Shown here: positions 31,829 through 61,160 of the stretch, in pieces
Layout: each line of letters starts with the position of its first letter
Position numbering within the stretch: the stretch's first letter is position 1
NCBI RefSeq assembly: GCF_024398035.1
Contig: NZ_CP073748.1
Coordinates: 3,711,001-3,775,000, forward strand
Origin: Kordiimonas sp. SCSIO 12603
GTDB lineage: Bacteria > Pseudomonadota > Alphaproteobacteria > Sphingomonadales > Kordiimonadaceae
Reading direction: 5' to 3'
Length of the DNA stretch: 64,000 nucleotides
The notes under the pieces: model-generated
Told to the model about the DNA's origin: nothing
Database searches by the model: none
Seen by the model: the letters and a program-made list of their open reading frames with translations, nothing else
Made by a program: the position numbers and the translations under genes

Positions 31829-33442
31829 ATGTCCGGGTTACTTGAAGAAACCAGAAAAGAACGTGAACGGTTTGTGGCCTTTGCTTTTGCCGCTGCTGAA
31901 ATCTTTCTGGAACTGGATAATTCAGGAAAGATTCTATTTGCTGGCGGCGCATCTGATCGCATCACACCACAAGGTAAAAGCCTTATTGGGGAAAGCATCG
32001 ACAGCATCGTGGATAAAGATGATATCGATATCTATCATGCCCTTGTCACCCATCTGAGCCACAAAGGCCGTATCGGACCTTTACCACTTCGTTTCAATAC
32101 AAACGACGGTAGATCAATTGCGCTGCGCGCATTTGCACTGAACATGCCACAGCAAGAAGGTACTCATACCTTTCTTGCTTTGCGCTCAGCGCCGCTTGGC
32201 ACGAGTGTAAGCGATAGCGCTGTAGATGAGGAAACTGGTCTTCTCACACAAGATGCCTTTATGGAAATGGCATCCAGCACCATGGCAAACACACCAAGCT
32301 CCAGCAATCTCTATATGACCACCGTGGCTGTTGATGGCTTTGAAGAGGCAAAAGAGAAATTTGGTCCACGGTATATGCGGCAACTTCTGAAGCGTGTTGC
32401 CGCCCATATGAAAACCCTGTCTGTTGACGGACAGTCCGCAAGCCAGATTGGGGAAAAAGAATTTGCCTTCCTGCATAAGAACAAAGCAGATGGTGAACAC
32501 CTAACCAATAGCCTTAAATCCGTCGACGAAAACGTAACCCTGACAGCCAGCAGTGCAACGATTTCCGCTGAGGGGGGCGATGTTTCTGAAGATCAGATTT
32601 TGAGAACACTTTCCTATATTCTCAATCAATTCTGTAAAGACCCAAAGAATGTTACCTTCGAATCTCTAACTAACGCCTATGAGGACATGGCGGGTGCTGC
32701 ACAAAAGCGTGTCACCAACATGCGCAGCATGATAGAAAGCGGTAACTTCAACATCGCTTTCCAGCCAGTGCTTGATCTGAAAACCGGTGATATTCATCAT
32801 AACGAAGTACTCTCCCGCTTTAACAACAATATGGGTGATAGCACACCTCTTGAGGTAATCCGCTTCGCTGAAGATGTTGGCATTATTGAAGAATTCGACA
32901 TTGCTCTATGCCATAAAGCCATTGATTATATCCGTAAAATGAAAAAGCTGGGAACCCCAGTTACGCTTGCTGTGAACCTGTCCGGGCGTACGCTCGATAG
33001 CGGCAGGTTTGTAGACCCTTTGATGAAAACACTTCTGAGTGCAAAAGACATTGCCCATTCACTATTGCTTGAGCTTACCGAAACCACGGGTGTAGAGAAC
33101 TTTGAAAAGGTCGAAGCAATCCTGAATGACCTGAAAGCTGCCAATTACCGTGTTTGTCTTGATGATTTTGGTGCGGGTGCTGCCGGATACCAGTATCTCA
33201 GGGCTTTCAATGTTGATTTCGTAAAAATTGACGGCGCTTACGTCCAAGATATGAATGCGCCAGGTTACCGCCCCACATTCCTGCTTTCTATCGTGAAACT
33301 CTGTAACGATCTGGGCGTAAAAACTATTGGCGAGCATGTTGAGAATAAATTCCAGGCTGAATTCTTGAAAACACTTGGTGTTGACTTCGGCCAAGGCTAT
33401 CATTTCGGAAAGCCGGATTTCACACCAAGAACAAACCTCTAA
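31829..33442 (+). CDS. EAL-domain protein with PAS-like and degenerate GGDEF regions
   Basis: A 537-residue cytoplasmic protein. Residues about 10-110 resemble a PAS sensor (IFLELDNSGKILFAGG). Residues about 130-250 look like a GGDEF fold without the GGDEF motif (TTVAVDGFEEAKEKFGPRYM, then IGEKEFAFLH). The EAL domain from about 290 has EVL in place of EAL, NLSG, LELTE, the metal pair in LDDFGAG, VKIDG and GEHVE, so cyclic-di-GMP phosphodiesterase activity is plausible. The start follows a run of G at 31819-31825. A two-base gap to the small membrane gene suggests coupling. Confidence 0.9.
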   Translation: MSGLLEETRKERERFVAFAFAAAEIFLELDNSGKILFAGGASDRITPQGKSLIGESIDSIVDKDDIDIYHALVTHLSHKGRIGPLPLRFNTNDGRSIALRAFALNMPQQEGTHTFLALRSAPLGTSVSDSAVDEETGLLTQDAFMEMASSTMANTPSSSNLYMTTVAVDGFEEAKEKFGPRYMRQLLKRVAAHMKTLSVDGQSASQIGEKEFAFLHKNKADGEHLTNSLKSVDENVTLTASSATISAEGGDVSEDQILRTLSYILNQFCKDPKNVTFESLTNAYEDMAGAAQKRVTNMRSMIESGNFNIAFQPVLDLKTGDIHHNEVLSRFNNNMGDSTPLEVIRFAEDVGIIEEFDIALCHKAIDYIRKMKKLGTPVTLAVNLSGRTLDSGRFVDPLMKTLLSAKDIAHSLLLELTETTGVENFEKVEAILNDLKAANYRVCLDDFGAGAAGYQYLRAFNVDFVKIDGAYVQDMNAPGYRPTFLLSIVKLCNDLGVKTIGEHVENKFQAEFLKTLGVDFGQGYHFGKPDFTPRTNL

Positions 33443-33444
33443 TT

Positions 33445-33663
33445 ATGACAACATATTATCTTATCGGTGGCATGTTAGCCTGTTGCTTCGTGTACGCCAT
33501 TGCTGCCTGGAAGCAAAAGCATAAGCAAATTGGCCAAGTACCTATCGTTCCTTATTATTATTGGCAGTTTTTTGCGATGATGGGTTTTCTAATTCTGGCC
33601 GCTAATTTAGTAGCCCATGTAACAGGCATTACATGGGAGTCCCCTTTCGGCGGAAGGCGTTAA
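33445..33663 (+). CDS. Small two-helix membrane protein after the EAL gene
   Basis: A 72-residue protein with two hydrophobic helices (YYLIGGMLACCFVYAIAAW and FFAMMGFLILAANLVAHVTG) separated by a basic stretch KQKHKQ. The ATG is two bases after the EAL stop, so it is almost certainly co-translated. Small membrane partners can anchor or tune c-di-GMP proteins, but no family is recognised and the function is unknown. Confidence 0.75.
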   Translation: MTTYYLIGGMLACCFVYAIAAWKQKHKQIGQVPIVPYYYWQFFAMMGFLILAANLVAHVTGITWESPFGGRR

Positions 33664-33667
33664 TATA

Positions 33668-34501
33668 TTAGCTTGCAGGCTCTTCTTCAGCGGCAGCTTC
33701 TTCAATTGAAGTTTCAAACAGTTTCATACCCAGGCGGGCATATAGTACCGCCCACAATCTAGACTGAAACAATCTACGCTTCCCTGTTTTACCAACAGCA
33801 AGATAAACACCTGAAGGGTGGCGATGCACGTATTTGGCAACTTCAGTAGACTCTTCAATCAGCTGATCTTTCACTTTACTAGATAAACGTACCCTATGTT
33901 TCTGCATCGGCTTATGGCGTTGGCGAGGTTTCCTGCCTTGCTTAAATCTGTACATCTTCAGCCAAACAACAACCACGATAATCCCAAAAGCTACAATCAT
34001 CATAAAAGTGCTTAACAGATAGATGTAATCAAACTCATCTCCCATTTCGATCCGGTTCACAGTTTCATCAAACGCTTGATCCACAGTTAAACTAGAATCC
34101 GTTGTCTCTCCCTCCACTCGGAAGCTGAGAATAAGACCATCACGCCGATCAAAACCTGATAATATACCGTTACCGCCGAAAACACTAACAAACCCATTAG
34201 AGGCCACAGTCACGCCATACAACGGGTCTCCGGAGCATTTTACTTTTAAGTCAATCAGATTGGGACGCTGCTGAAATACCTGATAATCAGTTACACGGGT
34301 GCAACGGTAACGAAACAATTGAATAATATCACGTAGCTGTAGAGCAAGGCTTTCCGGCAACACCTCGCGGTTAATACCAGCATAAAGGTCAAGCGACATT
34401 TGCCTTGGATCGGTCTCGTTCAAGCCGCTCTGTGCTTGAGCAGATGAAAAACCAACTGATAGAAAACCTGTAAGTATAAATATTCGCAGCAGATTTCGCA
34501 T
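33668..34501 (-). CDS. Single-pass membrane protein of unknown function
   Basis: A 277-residue protein with signal peptide (RNLLRIFILTGFLSVGFSSAQA). A periplasmic domain follows, residues about 25-155, with two cysteines (RYRCTRV and KVKCSGD) that could bridge. One TM helix spans about 160-182 (LLSTFMMIVAFGIIVVVVWL). A very basic cytoplasmic part follows (RFKQGRKPRQRHKPMQKHRVR) and ends in an acidic tail. It converges with the EAL/small-protein pair. I do not recognise it; the basic tail might contact nucleic acid or acidic lipid. Confidence 0.8.
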   Translation of the reverse strand: MRNLLRIFILTGFLSVGFSSAQAQSGLNETDPRQMSLDLYAGINREVLPESLALQLRDIIQLFRYRCTRVTDYQVFQQRPNLIDLKVKCSGDPLYGVTVASNGFVSVFGGNGILSGFDRRDGLILSFRVEGETTDSSLTVDQAFDETVNRIEMGDEFDYIYLLSTFMMIVAFGIIVVVVWLKMYRFKQGRKPRQRHKPMQKHRVRLSSKVKDQLIEESTEVAKYVHRHPSGVYLAVGKTGKRRLFQSRLWAVLYARLGMKLFETSIEEAAAEEEPAS

Positions 34502-34583
34502 AATATTACCCGCTTGTTACCTATGCCTATTGAAAAACATACCGGTCAACAATGCAATCATTATTCGAGTTTGGAAGAAGCAT

Positions 34584-34624
34584 AAAAAAACGGAACCGCA
34601 TTCGGGGGAGGACATGCGGTTCCG
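34584..34624 (-). terminator. Intrinsic terminator of the putative sRNA
   Basis: A perfect 11-base-pair stem, CGGAACCGCAT / ATGCGGTTCCG, with a 12-base loop and a following U7 on the minus strand. It is 130 bases beyond the lepA terminator, so it must end another transcript. Confidence 0.85.
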
Positions 34625-34663
34625 CGCGACACAGTCAGATCAAGGGAGCTATTAGGCTGTATC
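34584..34663 (-). ncRNA. Putative small RNA with two C-rich anti-Shine-Dalgarno hairpin loops
   Basis: Reading leftward, a candidate RNA of about 80 bases starts near 34663. Hairpin 1 pairs GATACAG (34657-34663) with CTGTGTC (34628-34634), a 7-base-pair stem with one G-U pair, whose 22-base loop carries GCUCCCUU. Hairpin 2 is an 11-base-pair stem (34591-34601 with 34614-34624) whose loop carries CCUCCCCC, followed by seven U as an intrinsic terminator. A promoter-like TTGTTA-17-TAATAC lies just upstream. Loops rich in CCUCC are known from alphaproteobacterial 'cuckoo'/alpha-r14-type sRNAs, which target ribosome-binding sites. It lies downstream of the separate lepA terminator. Confidence 0.65.
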
Positions 34664-34667
34664 AGCA

Positions 34668-34696
34668 GTATTAGGTTCTCAAACTTATGTTAACAA
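34668..34696 (-). promoter_or_regulatory. Candidate promoter of the putative sRNA
   Basis: On the minus strand TTGTTA (34691-34696) and TAATAC (34668-34673) are separated by 17 bases. The predicted start falls at about 34661-34663, at the base of the first hairpin. Each hexamer has only a moderate match to the sigma-70 consensus. Confidence 0.45.
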
Positions 34697-34752
34697 CACG
34701 TTAAAAAAATATATTCTATGCCTTGTTTTTAGAAAATCTCTCCAAAAAGCAT

Positions 34753-34782
34753 AAAAAAATCCCGCCTATTTGAAATAGGCGG
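34753..34782 (-). terminator. Intrinsic terminator of lepA
   Basis: CCGCCTATTT and AAATAGGCGG pair perfectly (10 base pairs, tiny loop), followed by U7 on the minus strand, 37 bases after the lepA stop. Confidence 0.9.
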
Positions 34783-34818
34783 AATGTTTAACTTGAGAAA
34801 ATTGATCCGATTCAATCT

Positions 34819-36621
34819 TTAATTTTCTCTCATCTTCAAGGCAGCAATAAATGCACTGTGCGGTATTTCCACCTTACCATACATACGCATCTTGGCTTTA
34901 CCCTTCTTCTGTTTCTCAAGAAGCTTTTTCTTACGGGTAATATCACCGCCATAACATTTCGCTGTTACATCTTTACGCATAGCGGAAATGGTTTCACGGG
35001 CAATAACCTTACCGCCAATCGCTGCCTGAATAGGAATTTTAAACAGCTGGCGCGGGATCAAATCCTTTAGGCGTTCACAAAGCGCACGGCCACGGCTATC
35101 TGCCTGCGTGCGGTGCACAAGCATGGAAAGCGCGTCCACTGGCTCAGCGTTCACAAGGATAGACATTTTCACAAGATCTGATTCTTCATAACCGCGAAGC
35201 TCATAATCGAAACTTGCGTAACCACGGCTTACAGATTTAAGGCGGTCATAGAAGTCATAAACCACTTCGTTGAGCGGCAGCTTATACTTAAGCATTGCAC
35301 GAGCACCAACGTAAGTAAGGTCTTCCTGAATACCGCGCTTGTCTTCACAAAGCTTCAGAACTGTGCCCAGATGCTCATCCGGCACAAGGATTGTTGCGTC
35401 AATCCACGGTTCTTCAATACGGTCAATCTTGGTCACATCAGGCATATCAGCCGGGTTATGCAGCTCTACCCGTTCACCGTTCTTCATATAGATATGATAG
35501 ATCACGCTTGGGCTTGTGGTGATAAGCTCAATATCAAACTCACGGTTGATACGTTCCTGAATAATCTCAAGGTGCAGCATTCCAAGGAAACCACAGCGGA
35601 AACCAAAACCAAGCGCTGTAGAGCTTTCGGTTTCAAATTCAAAGCTGGCATCATTCAAGCGCAATTTCGCCAGCGCTTCCTTAAGCGCTTCATATTCAGA
35701 CGTATCGGCAGGGAACAGGCCACAGAATACTACAGAACGGCTTGGCTGGAAGCCTGGCAATGCTTCCTCACACGGCACTTTAATATCAGTGATCGTGTCA
35801 CCTACGTGAGTGTCAGCCACTTCTTTGATAGACGCTGTAATAAAGCCAACTTCACCCGGCCCCAGTTCCGGCACCATCACACCCTTTGGTGTGAACACGC
35901 CAACGCGGTCAATTTTATGCTCACTATCAGCTGCGAGCATTTTAATGGTCTGGCCTTTTTTGATGGTGCCGTCGATCACACGCACAAGAACCATCACGCC
36001 CAGATAACTATCGTACCAGCTATCCACCAGCATGGCTTTAAGCGGTGCATCCGGGTCACCTTCTGGCGCTGGCAAGCGCTCAACGATACCGTCCAGAACT
36101 TCTTCAATACCAATGCCCGATTTCGCAGAACATTCGATAGCTTCAGAGGCATCAATACCAATCACATCTTCAATCTGAGTACGCACCCGCTCAGGCTCAG
36201 CCGCTGGCAGGTCGATTTTATTGAGAACTGGAACGATATCATGATCATTTTCAATCGCCTGATATACGTTCGCCAACGTTTGCGCTTCCACGCCCTGGCT
36301 GGCATCCACTACAAGAAGCGAGCCTTCACAGGCAGAAAGGCATCGGCTTACCTCATAGGCAAAATCCACGTGGCCCGGCGTGTCCATCAGGTTCAGAACA
36401 TATATCTCACCATCTTTCGCACGGTATTCAAGGCGCACTGTTTGCGCCTTAATCGTAATACCCCGCTCGCGCTCAATATCCATGGAATCAAGCACCTGCT
36501 GCTTCATTTCGCGATCTTCAAGAGCACCTGTGTGCTGGATCAAGCGGTCAGCAAGTGTGGATTTTCCGTGGTCAATGTGCGCAACAATTGAGAAGTTGCG
36601 AATGTTCTTTAATTCGGTCAT
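34819..36621 (-). CDS. lepA: Elongation factor 4 (LepA)
   Basis: LepA/EF4, a ribosome-bound GTPase that helps with translation initiation or back-translocation under stress. The 600-residue length is standard. The G domain has [15 protein letters not shown] (G1), ERGITI (G2), DTPGHVDF (G3) and NKIDLPAA (G4). The C-terminus carries the LepA-specific [25 protein letters not shown] at 36621 follows AACGGCC. It is monocistronic with a terminator 37 bases downstream. A long open frame on the opposite strand over this gene is a codon-bias shadow. Confidence 0.98.
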
Positions 36622-60737: not shown

Positions 60738-61160
60738 TTATTCTTCCTTAAGGGGCACCCCGTAGAGTTCCATGCGGTGGTCTACTAATTTATAACCTAG
60801 TTTGCGAGCGATTTCTTCCTGTAGCTTCTCAATTTCTTCACTGTGAAATTCTACCACTTCACCTGATTCAACATTAATAAGGTGATCGTGGTGATCATCA
60901 GATGCAGGCTCATAACGCGAACGGCCATCACGAAAATCATGACGCTCAAGAATACCGGCCTCTTCAAACAAGCGGACCGTACGGTACACAGTAGCGATAC
61001 TGATACCATCATCCACTTCTTTTGATCGGCTATAAACTTCATCTACATCCGGGTGATCTTCAGCTTCCGTCAGAACCCTCGCGATTACACGGCGCTGGTC
61101 TGTCATACGCATGCCTTTTTGCAGGCATAATTCTTCAATAGACGGTGTGTTTGAAGGCAT
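60738..61160 (-). CDS. fur: Fur-family metal-responsive regulator
   Basis: A 140-residue Fur/Mur-type repressor. The winged helix contains QKGMRMTDQRRVIARVLTEAEDHPDVDEVY and ISIATVYRTVRLFEEAGILERHDF; metal-site residues lie in DDHHDHLINVESGEVVEFHSEEIE. The CxxC pair of classic E. coli Fur is replaced (VESGE), as in alphaproteobacterial Fur/Mur. It probably controls iron or manganese uptake genes, perhaps including the TonB operon at 8-12 kb, though no Fur box is assigned. Confidence 0.94.
   Translation of the reverse strand: MPSNTPSIEELCLQKGMRMTDQRRVIARVLTEAEDHPDVDEVYSRSKEVDDGISIATVYRTVRLFEEAGILERHDFRDGRSRYEPASDDHHDHLINVESGEVVEFHSEEIEKLQEEIARKLGYKLVDHRMELYGVPLKEE

Follow-up and report, generated by a model that had tools for sequence, protein, structure and literature searches.

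A predicted small RNA gene with a conserved CtrA-type promoter box in Kordiimonas and its relatives

CtrA-linked and C-rich-loop RNAs compared with the Kordiimonas locus

Several small RNAs described from Alphaproteobacteria offer points of comparison for the locus reported here. CcnA (CCNA_R0094) of Caulobacter crescentus, a 182-nt RNA transcribed from within the replication origin (PMC4287350), is reported to pair through a CCCC loop with GGGG of the ctrA and gcrA leaders, and its promoter is described as having a CtrA box (PMC8959179). GspR of Sinorhizobium, which is reported to act on ctrA mRNA (PMC5928217), and EcpR1 (PMC4414408) are trans-acting small RNAs tied to cell-cycle regulation. 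The alpha-r14 or cuckoo RNAs (NfeR1, SmelA075/SmelA099, and CcsR) carry anti-Shine-Dalgarno-like loops on variable stems (PMC3927594, PMC10746234, PMC10253847); as defined in papers that cite the family paper, they are built of three or four hairpins, and CCUCCUCCC recurs as the loop motif in each (PMC3927594, PMC10746234). Among these, CcsR is described together with a DUF1127 gene and behind an RpoH-type promoter.

The locus lies in a stretch of 64,000 nucleotides from Kordiimonas sp. SCSIO 12603 (hereafter the window), where the minus strand from 34666 to 34583, near lepA, is a predicted gene for an RNA of about 84 nt with two hairpins. Like CcnA (PMC8959179), it has a CtrA-type box in its promoter (30 of 30 aligned loci) and a C-run in a loop, here loop 2 (CCUCCCCCG), which is also present in relatives; it is shorter than the 182 nt of CcnA, and it is found beside lepA or other genes, where CcnA is described from the replication origin (PMC4287350). 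As a putative trans-acting RNA with a link to cell-cycle regulation it would resemble GspR and EcpR1; the portions of the gspR report consulted give no known promoter signature for gspR (PMC5928217). A sequence-only reading of this DNA had likened the RNA to the cuckoo or alpha-r14 types, as a new member or family. It is indeed alphaproteobacterial with anti-Shine-Dalgarno-like loops, but the kinship is not supported, as there are two hairpins with two different loops, neither of which contains CCUCCUCCC, and the promoter carries a CtrA-type box, where an RpoH-type promoter is described for CcsR; no DUF1127 gene was found among the six neighbouring window proteins scanned. The Rfam search proposed with that reading matched no family, with nothing above the gathering threshold of Rfam 15 in the window and, at E up to 10, 12 weak matches in 34480-34830, none of which covers the RNA.

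The best reading, by likeness of anatomy and with no claim of homology, is that the RNA would work like a CtrA-controlled C-loop small RNA of the CcnA kind. It looks like a new RNA family of a known type, and no paper on this RNA or on small RNAs of Kordiimonas was among the literature matches listed. The main point, which the sequence-only reading overlooked, is the CtrA-type promoter. Overall, we consider it probable that the locus is a CtrA-activated gene for a trans-acting small RNA of about 84 nt, with its own promoter and intrinsic terminator, that pairs through C-rich loops.

Architecture, occurrence, and autonomy of the RNA gene

The lepA gene ends in a terminator of its own (34759..34785, minus strand; consensus scan and fold), which separates it from the RNA and for which the fold of 34790-34756 gives a z of -5.5, with none of 200 shuffles as good. 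A second terminator past this one had been claimed and is present: hairpin 2 (34590..34625, minus strand) folds from 34625 to 34590 into 12 predicted pairs at -20.4 kcal/mol (z -6.0, matched by none of 200 shuffles) and leads into a T7 tract (34584..34590, minus strand) that is T-rich in relatives, except for one locus (L025) with a C-run instead. The 7-bp hairpin proposed upstream of it is likewise there. In this hairpin 1 (34628..34663, minus strand), GAUACAG at 34663-34657 pairs with CUGUGUC at 34634-34628, one U-G pair included, around the loop sequence CCUAAUAGCUCCCUUGAUCUGA. Folded alone, hairpin 1 does not stand out (z -1.67, matched by 14 of 200 shuffles); the fold of an 80-nt RNA has a z of -4.7. 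Both loops are C-rich, as had been noted from the sequence, and are conserved in relatives. The loop 1 motif AGCUCCCUU (34642..34650, minus strand) is near-identical across the Kordiimonadaceae and is kept also in the loci of family f2 and in one locus of family f7, with variants in L012, L026, and L051. The loop 2 motif (34603..34611, minus strand), recognised from sequence and alignment, lies in a loop that contains CUCCCCC. The RNA (34583..34666, minus strand) would begin with GCUGAUACAG at about 34666, a 5' end placed from conservation and from the spacing to the box, and 84 nt is the distance from this start to the end of the T-tract; the separate small RNA gene of the sequence-only reading is supported, with its probable start corrected to near 34666. 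A consensus scan for promoters and terminators reported neither the RNA promoter (TTGTTA-17-TAATAC) nor the RNA terminator, and it reported one terminator where 1.9 would be expected from shuffles, so that the scan lends the gene no support.

A blastn search with a 161-base query found matches in 27 of 98 genomes, counting the genome of origin, and the closest relative was Kordiimonas laminariae (G016; 99% over 161 bases). One match (G055) was confined to query bases 5-33 and was left out of the alignment, which holds the other 26. Two covariance models were then available, R1 for the RNA alone and R2 with the promoter included. Searched against 396 genomes of the order, R1 matched 37 and found the RNA in 26 of the 29 Kordiimonadaceae genomes; among the three misses, one is an assembly gap in which lepA is missing too (G010), and in two (G025 and G026) lepA is directly followed by another gene. 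R1 also matched two genomes of family f7 (G034 and G040, the G040 copy, L026, having been part of the model) and two of family f2 (G042 and G056). With R2, diverged copies were found in both f7 genomes, and three of eight f2 genomes matched, two of them strongly; the third (G052) is doubtful, being weak and diverged with half-sites 8 apart and not 7. A pattern scan of named genomes returned 21 records, comprising 17 family genomes already searched, one further Kordiimonadaceae metagenome-assembled genome (MAG), two f2 MAGs, and one record (L068, Desulfotomaculaceae) taken as chance as it has no box and no matching terminator. Named carriers include Kordiimonas laminariae, K. marina, K. sediminis, K. 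gwangyangensis, Eilatimonas milleporae, and Pseudokordiimonas caeni.

Other matches were set aside. Seven matches in family f5 and second matches in G002 and G024 from the order search have at most a G+C-rich terminator-like hairpin in common with the RNA. R1, run against 385 genomes of the class, gave nine with E<=0.01 including the genome of origin, and the other eight (L058-L065) all lack the GATACAG hairpin; R2 over the same genomes matched only the genome of origin and G738. A second R2 match in G042 (L269, 1501-1618, E 0.004) has the box TTAACCATTTATTAAC (TTAA-N7-TTAAC) and no recognisable RNA or RNA hairpins, and may possibly be another CtrA-type promoter. As a separate observation, look-alikes in unrelated families (L058, 1501-1580, in G738; L242, 1501-1585, in G139) show a C-rich loop on a first hairpin and a C-run in the loop of the terminator that comes next, and neither has a GATACAG hairpin or a CtrA-type box; this could perhaps be a recurrent architecture.

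Covariation was counted over 20 of 30 sequences, ten near-duplicates being left out. In these, 97.6% of 339 cells pair, 10 cells are changed on both sides against a shuffled mean of 2.0, and the covariation score is 0.208 versus 0.159, with none of 500 shuffles as high for any of the three. Two measures were weaker: four pairs have double changes, a count reached by 11 of 500 shuffles, and there are 14 further pair types, reached by 97 of 500. When the partners were shifted out of register, the paired cells fell to 32-47%. The 26 family-level sequences gave a single pair with a double change, a count reached by 171 of 500 shuffles; most of them are close relatives with too little variation, so pairing is hardly testable there. 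All four pairs with double changes sit in the terminator stem. In hairpin 1 the compatible changes are all one-sided, none being a double compensatory change, and one locus (L057) has lost part of the hairpin. The terminator is therefore backed by covariation and hairpin 1 by conservation only. The expectation that stems and loops would be conserved in relatives is borne out to that extent, as is the claim of a separate small RNA gene, the element being conserved through the family and the DNA just upstream of it not.

The genes on either side vary. Upstream, 21 of 30 loci have lepA at a distance of up to about 1.5 kb, which is what would be seen if the RNA were processed from the 3' end of the lepA transcript or were an extra lepA terminator. 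Against such an origin, lepA is closed by a terminator of its own, the conserved box separates lepA from the RNA, no lepA occurs in the 2.7-4.5 kb upstream of L072, L074, L078, and L081, and a lepA was likewise not found next to the f2 and f7 loci; we regard such an origin as extremely improbable. Downstream, 25 of 30 loci have a gene for a membrane-type protein (33668-34501, minus strand; 277 aa, no Pfam or NCBIfam match) in the same orientation, and the one in the window starts 82 bases past the T-run. Such an arrangement would suit an attenuator in a 5' leader, acting in cis on the membrane gene. However, Pseudokordiimonas, K. sediminis, and the two strong f2 loci lack the membrane gene behind the RNA and still keep box, RNA, and terminator, and the most conserved stretch is a loop and not an alternative stem, so that a leader is highly unlikely. 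In two loci where the membrane gene is missing (L076 and L082), a relative of a 72-aa window protein (33445-33663) is convergent, about 100-280 nt past the first stem of the RNA. Since the flanking genes change and the RNA stays, the predicted gene is autonomous, and the cohesion of box, RNA, and terminator as one unit argues against both the lepA product and the membrane-gene leader. The predicted gene has the features of an intrinsically terminated small RNA gene, namely a conserved terminator hairpin with a T-tract (the C-run of L025 excepted) that is independent of its flanks.

A CtrA-type box at a fixed place in the promoter

The promoter TTGTTA-17-TAATAC named by the sequence-only reading is present (34696-34691 and 34673-34668), with the qualification that TTGTTA falls inside a longer conserved box, TTAACGTGTTGTTAAC (TTAA-N7-TTAAC; 34689..34704, minus strand), which was also listed by a pattern search of the genome. 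The -10-like TAATAC (34668..34673, minus strand) is seen in the window; relatives have a TATAA-like element a few bases further upstream, and alignment columns 28-31 are 60-87% identical. All 30 aligned loci have TTWA-N7-TTAA. The first half-site is TTTA in 24 and TTAA in 6, and no other letter occurs in the columns TT[T/A]A and TTAA. The columns between the box and the -10 region are only 27-53% identical. The 5' base of the box lies 38-40 nt before the aligned 5' end of the RNA in the 30 loci, and in 20 named records (chance record excluded) the box is 41-43 nt before GATACAG. Four loci (L051, L055, L056, and L057) were found by the promoter-free R1 and had been absent from its model, and the box is in register in all four. 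As background, the motif has 32 matches on both strands of 26 loci (156,308 positions), at least 26 of which are the box itself.

TTAA-N7-TTAA is reported as the full CtrA motif of Caulobacter, where it activates with its 5' base near -35 (-39 at ctrA P2), where repressing CtrA half-sites lie over the -10, and where sciP and flagellar genes are CtrA targets (PMC4287350). By sequence and position, the box corresponds to such a full site. CtrA is encoded in 29 of 29 Kordiimonadaceae genomes, and that of the genome of origin passes the NCBIfam cut-off. The related pattern TTWAC-N6-TTAAC has 20 matches in the genome of origin versus 26 for a reversed control, and it is not commoner than the control in four of six genomes, that one included; the motif by itself therefore proves nothing. 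All 19 sites other than that of the RNA were examined. Only two were recognised as lying before CtrA-type targets, and the remaining 17 stand before various genes or before none that was recognised. The first of the two is ahead of sciP (NCBIfam 'CtrA inhibitor SciP') within a flagellar cluster with flgD and fliF. The other lies in the che-ctrA region, with cheA on one side and, on the other, a gene that has the type of histidine phosphotransferase domain that ChpT would have; six of six genomes have a matching site ahead of the same cheA-type start. The CheA of L350 (4136-7234, minus strand; 1032 aa) has about 245 residues between its Hpt and dimerisation domains that match no Pfam family.

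It is rather unlikely that the box is read by another factor, or that CtrA represses from it. The shortness of the motif, its lack of over-representation in four of six genomes, and the scarcity of the N7 motif in ctrA upstream regions (1 of 28) would fit such readings. However, a place near -35 is where CtrA activates in Caulobacter, with repressing half-sites lying over the -10 (PMC4287350), and the motif is common to the upstream regions of sciP and cheA. Under the preferred reading of a CtrA-activated small RNA gene, CtrA would bind TTWA-N7-TTAA at the -35 region of the RNA promoter and would turn the RNA on along with chemotaxis and flagellar genes. Comparison gives a conserved RNA that is independent of its neighbours, with a terminator stem and a CtrA-type box at a fixed place; from these we infer transcription, CtrA as binder and activator, and a base-pairing mode of action.

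Possible targets and meaning for the CtrA pathway

The exposed loops AGCUCCCUU and CUCCCCC may pair with G-rich start regions of several mRNAs, and this pairing would alter the translation of those mRNAs. The word complementary to loop 1, searched as AAGGGAGC-N1-16-ATG in six genomes, had 133 matches against 41 for the reversed pattern, an excess that any Shine-Dalgarno-like word would give. Frames of at least 40 codons accounted for 75 rows (one site twice), and the cross-species groups were atpF in three genomes and three other genes in two each. As a target, atpF was rejected because AAGGGAGC is kept in only 7 of 26 matched genomes (29 searched) and because G025 and G026, which lack the RNA, have similar atpF start regions. 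For ctrA in 28 genomes, duplex energies calculated with the loops of the genome of origin for all species were average for loop 1, and with loop 2 were slightly above average without standing out, in the better 36% in 23 genomes and in the best 5% in one. GGGG is found near the ctrA start in 15 of 28 genomes; the background is 19 of 139 genes, with six EAL-gene starts counted in the 139, and since the ctrA orthologues are not independent, this excess is a hint. Nothing outstanding was found among the chemotaxis and flagellar genes of L350 and L351, the best being cheA with loop 2 (rank 0.08 versus 64 window genes). No convincing conserved mRNA target thus emerged from the pattern search in six genomes or from the atpF (26 genomes) and ctrA (28 genomes) comparisons.

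Two genes of the window pair best with the loops. Among 64 window genes, the best loop pairing is that of a GGDEF/EAL gene (31829-33442, plus strand) with GGGGGGG before its start; in 13 relatives, GGGG just before the start is present in seven and absent in six, which is suggestive only. The second-best is that of a gene at 60738-61160 (minus strand) with TTTAGGGGAGTGCATTAGCTC before its start, which we take to encode a Fur-type regulator.

A near-identical loop 1 throughout the family, with no conserved mRNA partner found, would also be expected of a real CtrA-controlled small RNA that binds a protein or titrates another RNA, with no pairing to start regions. We know of no protein partner of this RNA, which counts against protein binding. 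Exposed C-rich loops, moreover, suit G-rich start regions, as in CcnA (PMC8959179), and this alternative is unlikely beside a CtrA-activated RNA that pairs with start regions through its loops.

A bolder proposal, which we hold to be doubtful, is that Kordiimonadaceae and two neighbouring families have a CtrA-small RNA circuit that is CcnA-like but independent, in which CtrA turns on the RNA and the C5 loop pairs with G4 at the ctrA start and, in several species, with G4-G7 where the nearby EAL (c-di-GMP) gene begins. A regulator of motility and cell cycle would in this way be coupled back to itself via RNA. If true, CtrA-driven C-loop RNAs would be a recurrent wiring rule in Alphaproteobacteria. 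A fixed CtrA-type box in the Kordiimonas lineage is worthwhile to the specialist without being astonishing: the box has kept its place through the divergence of three families, while the surrounding promoter changed. It would link a small RNA with the CtrA pathway in bacteria other than Caulobacter and the rhizobia, in which the published CtrA-linked RNAs that were found have been studied, and the gene, being small and open to test, offers a way to ask if feedback by RNA on CtrA output is a general feature.
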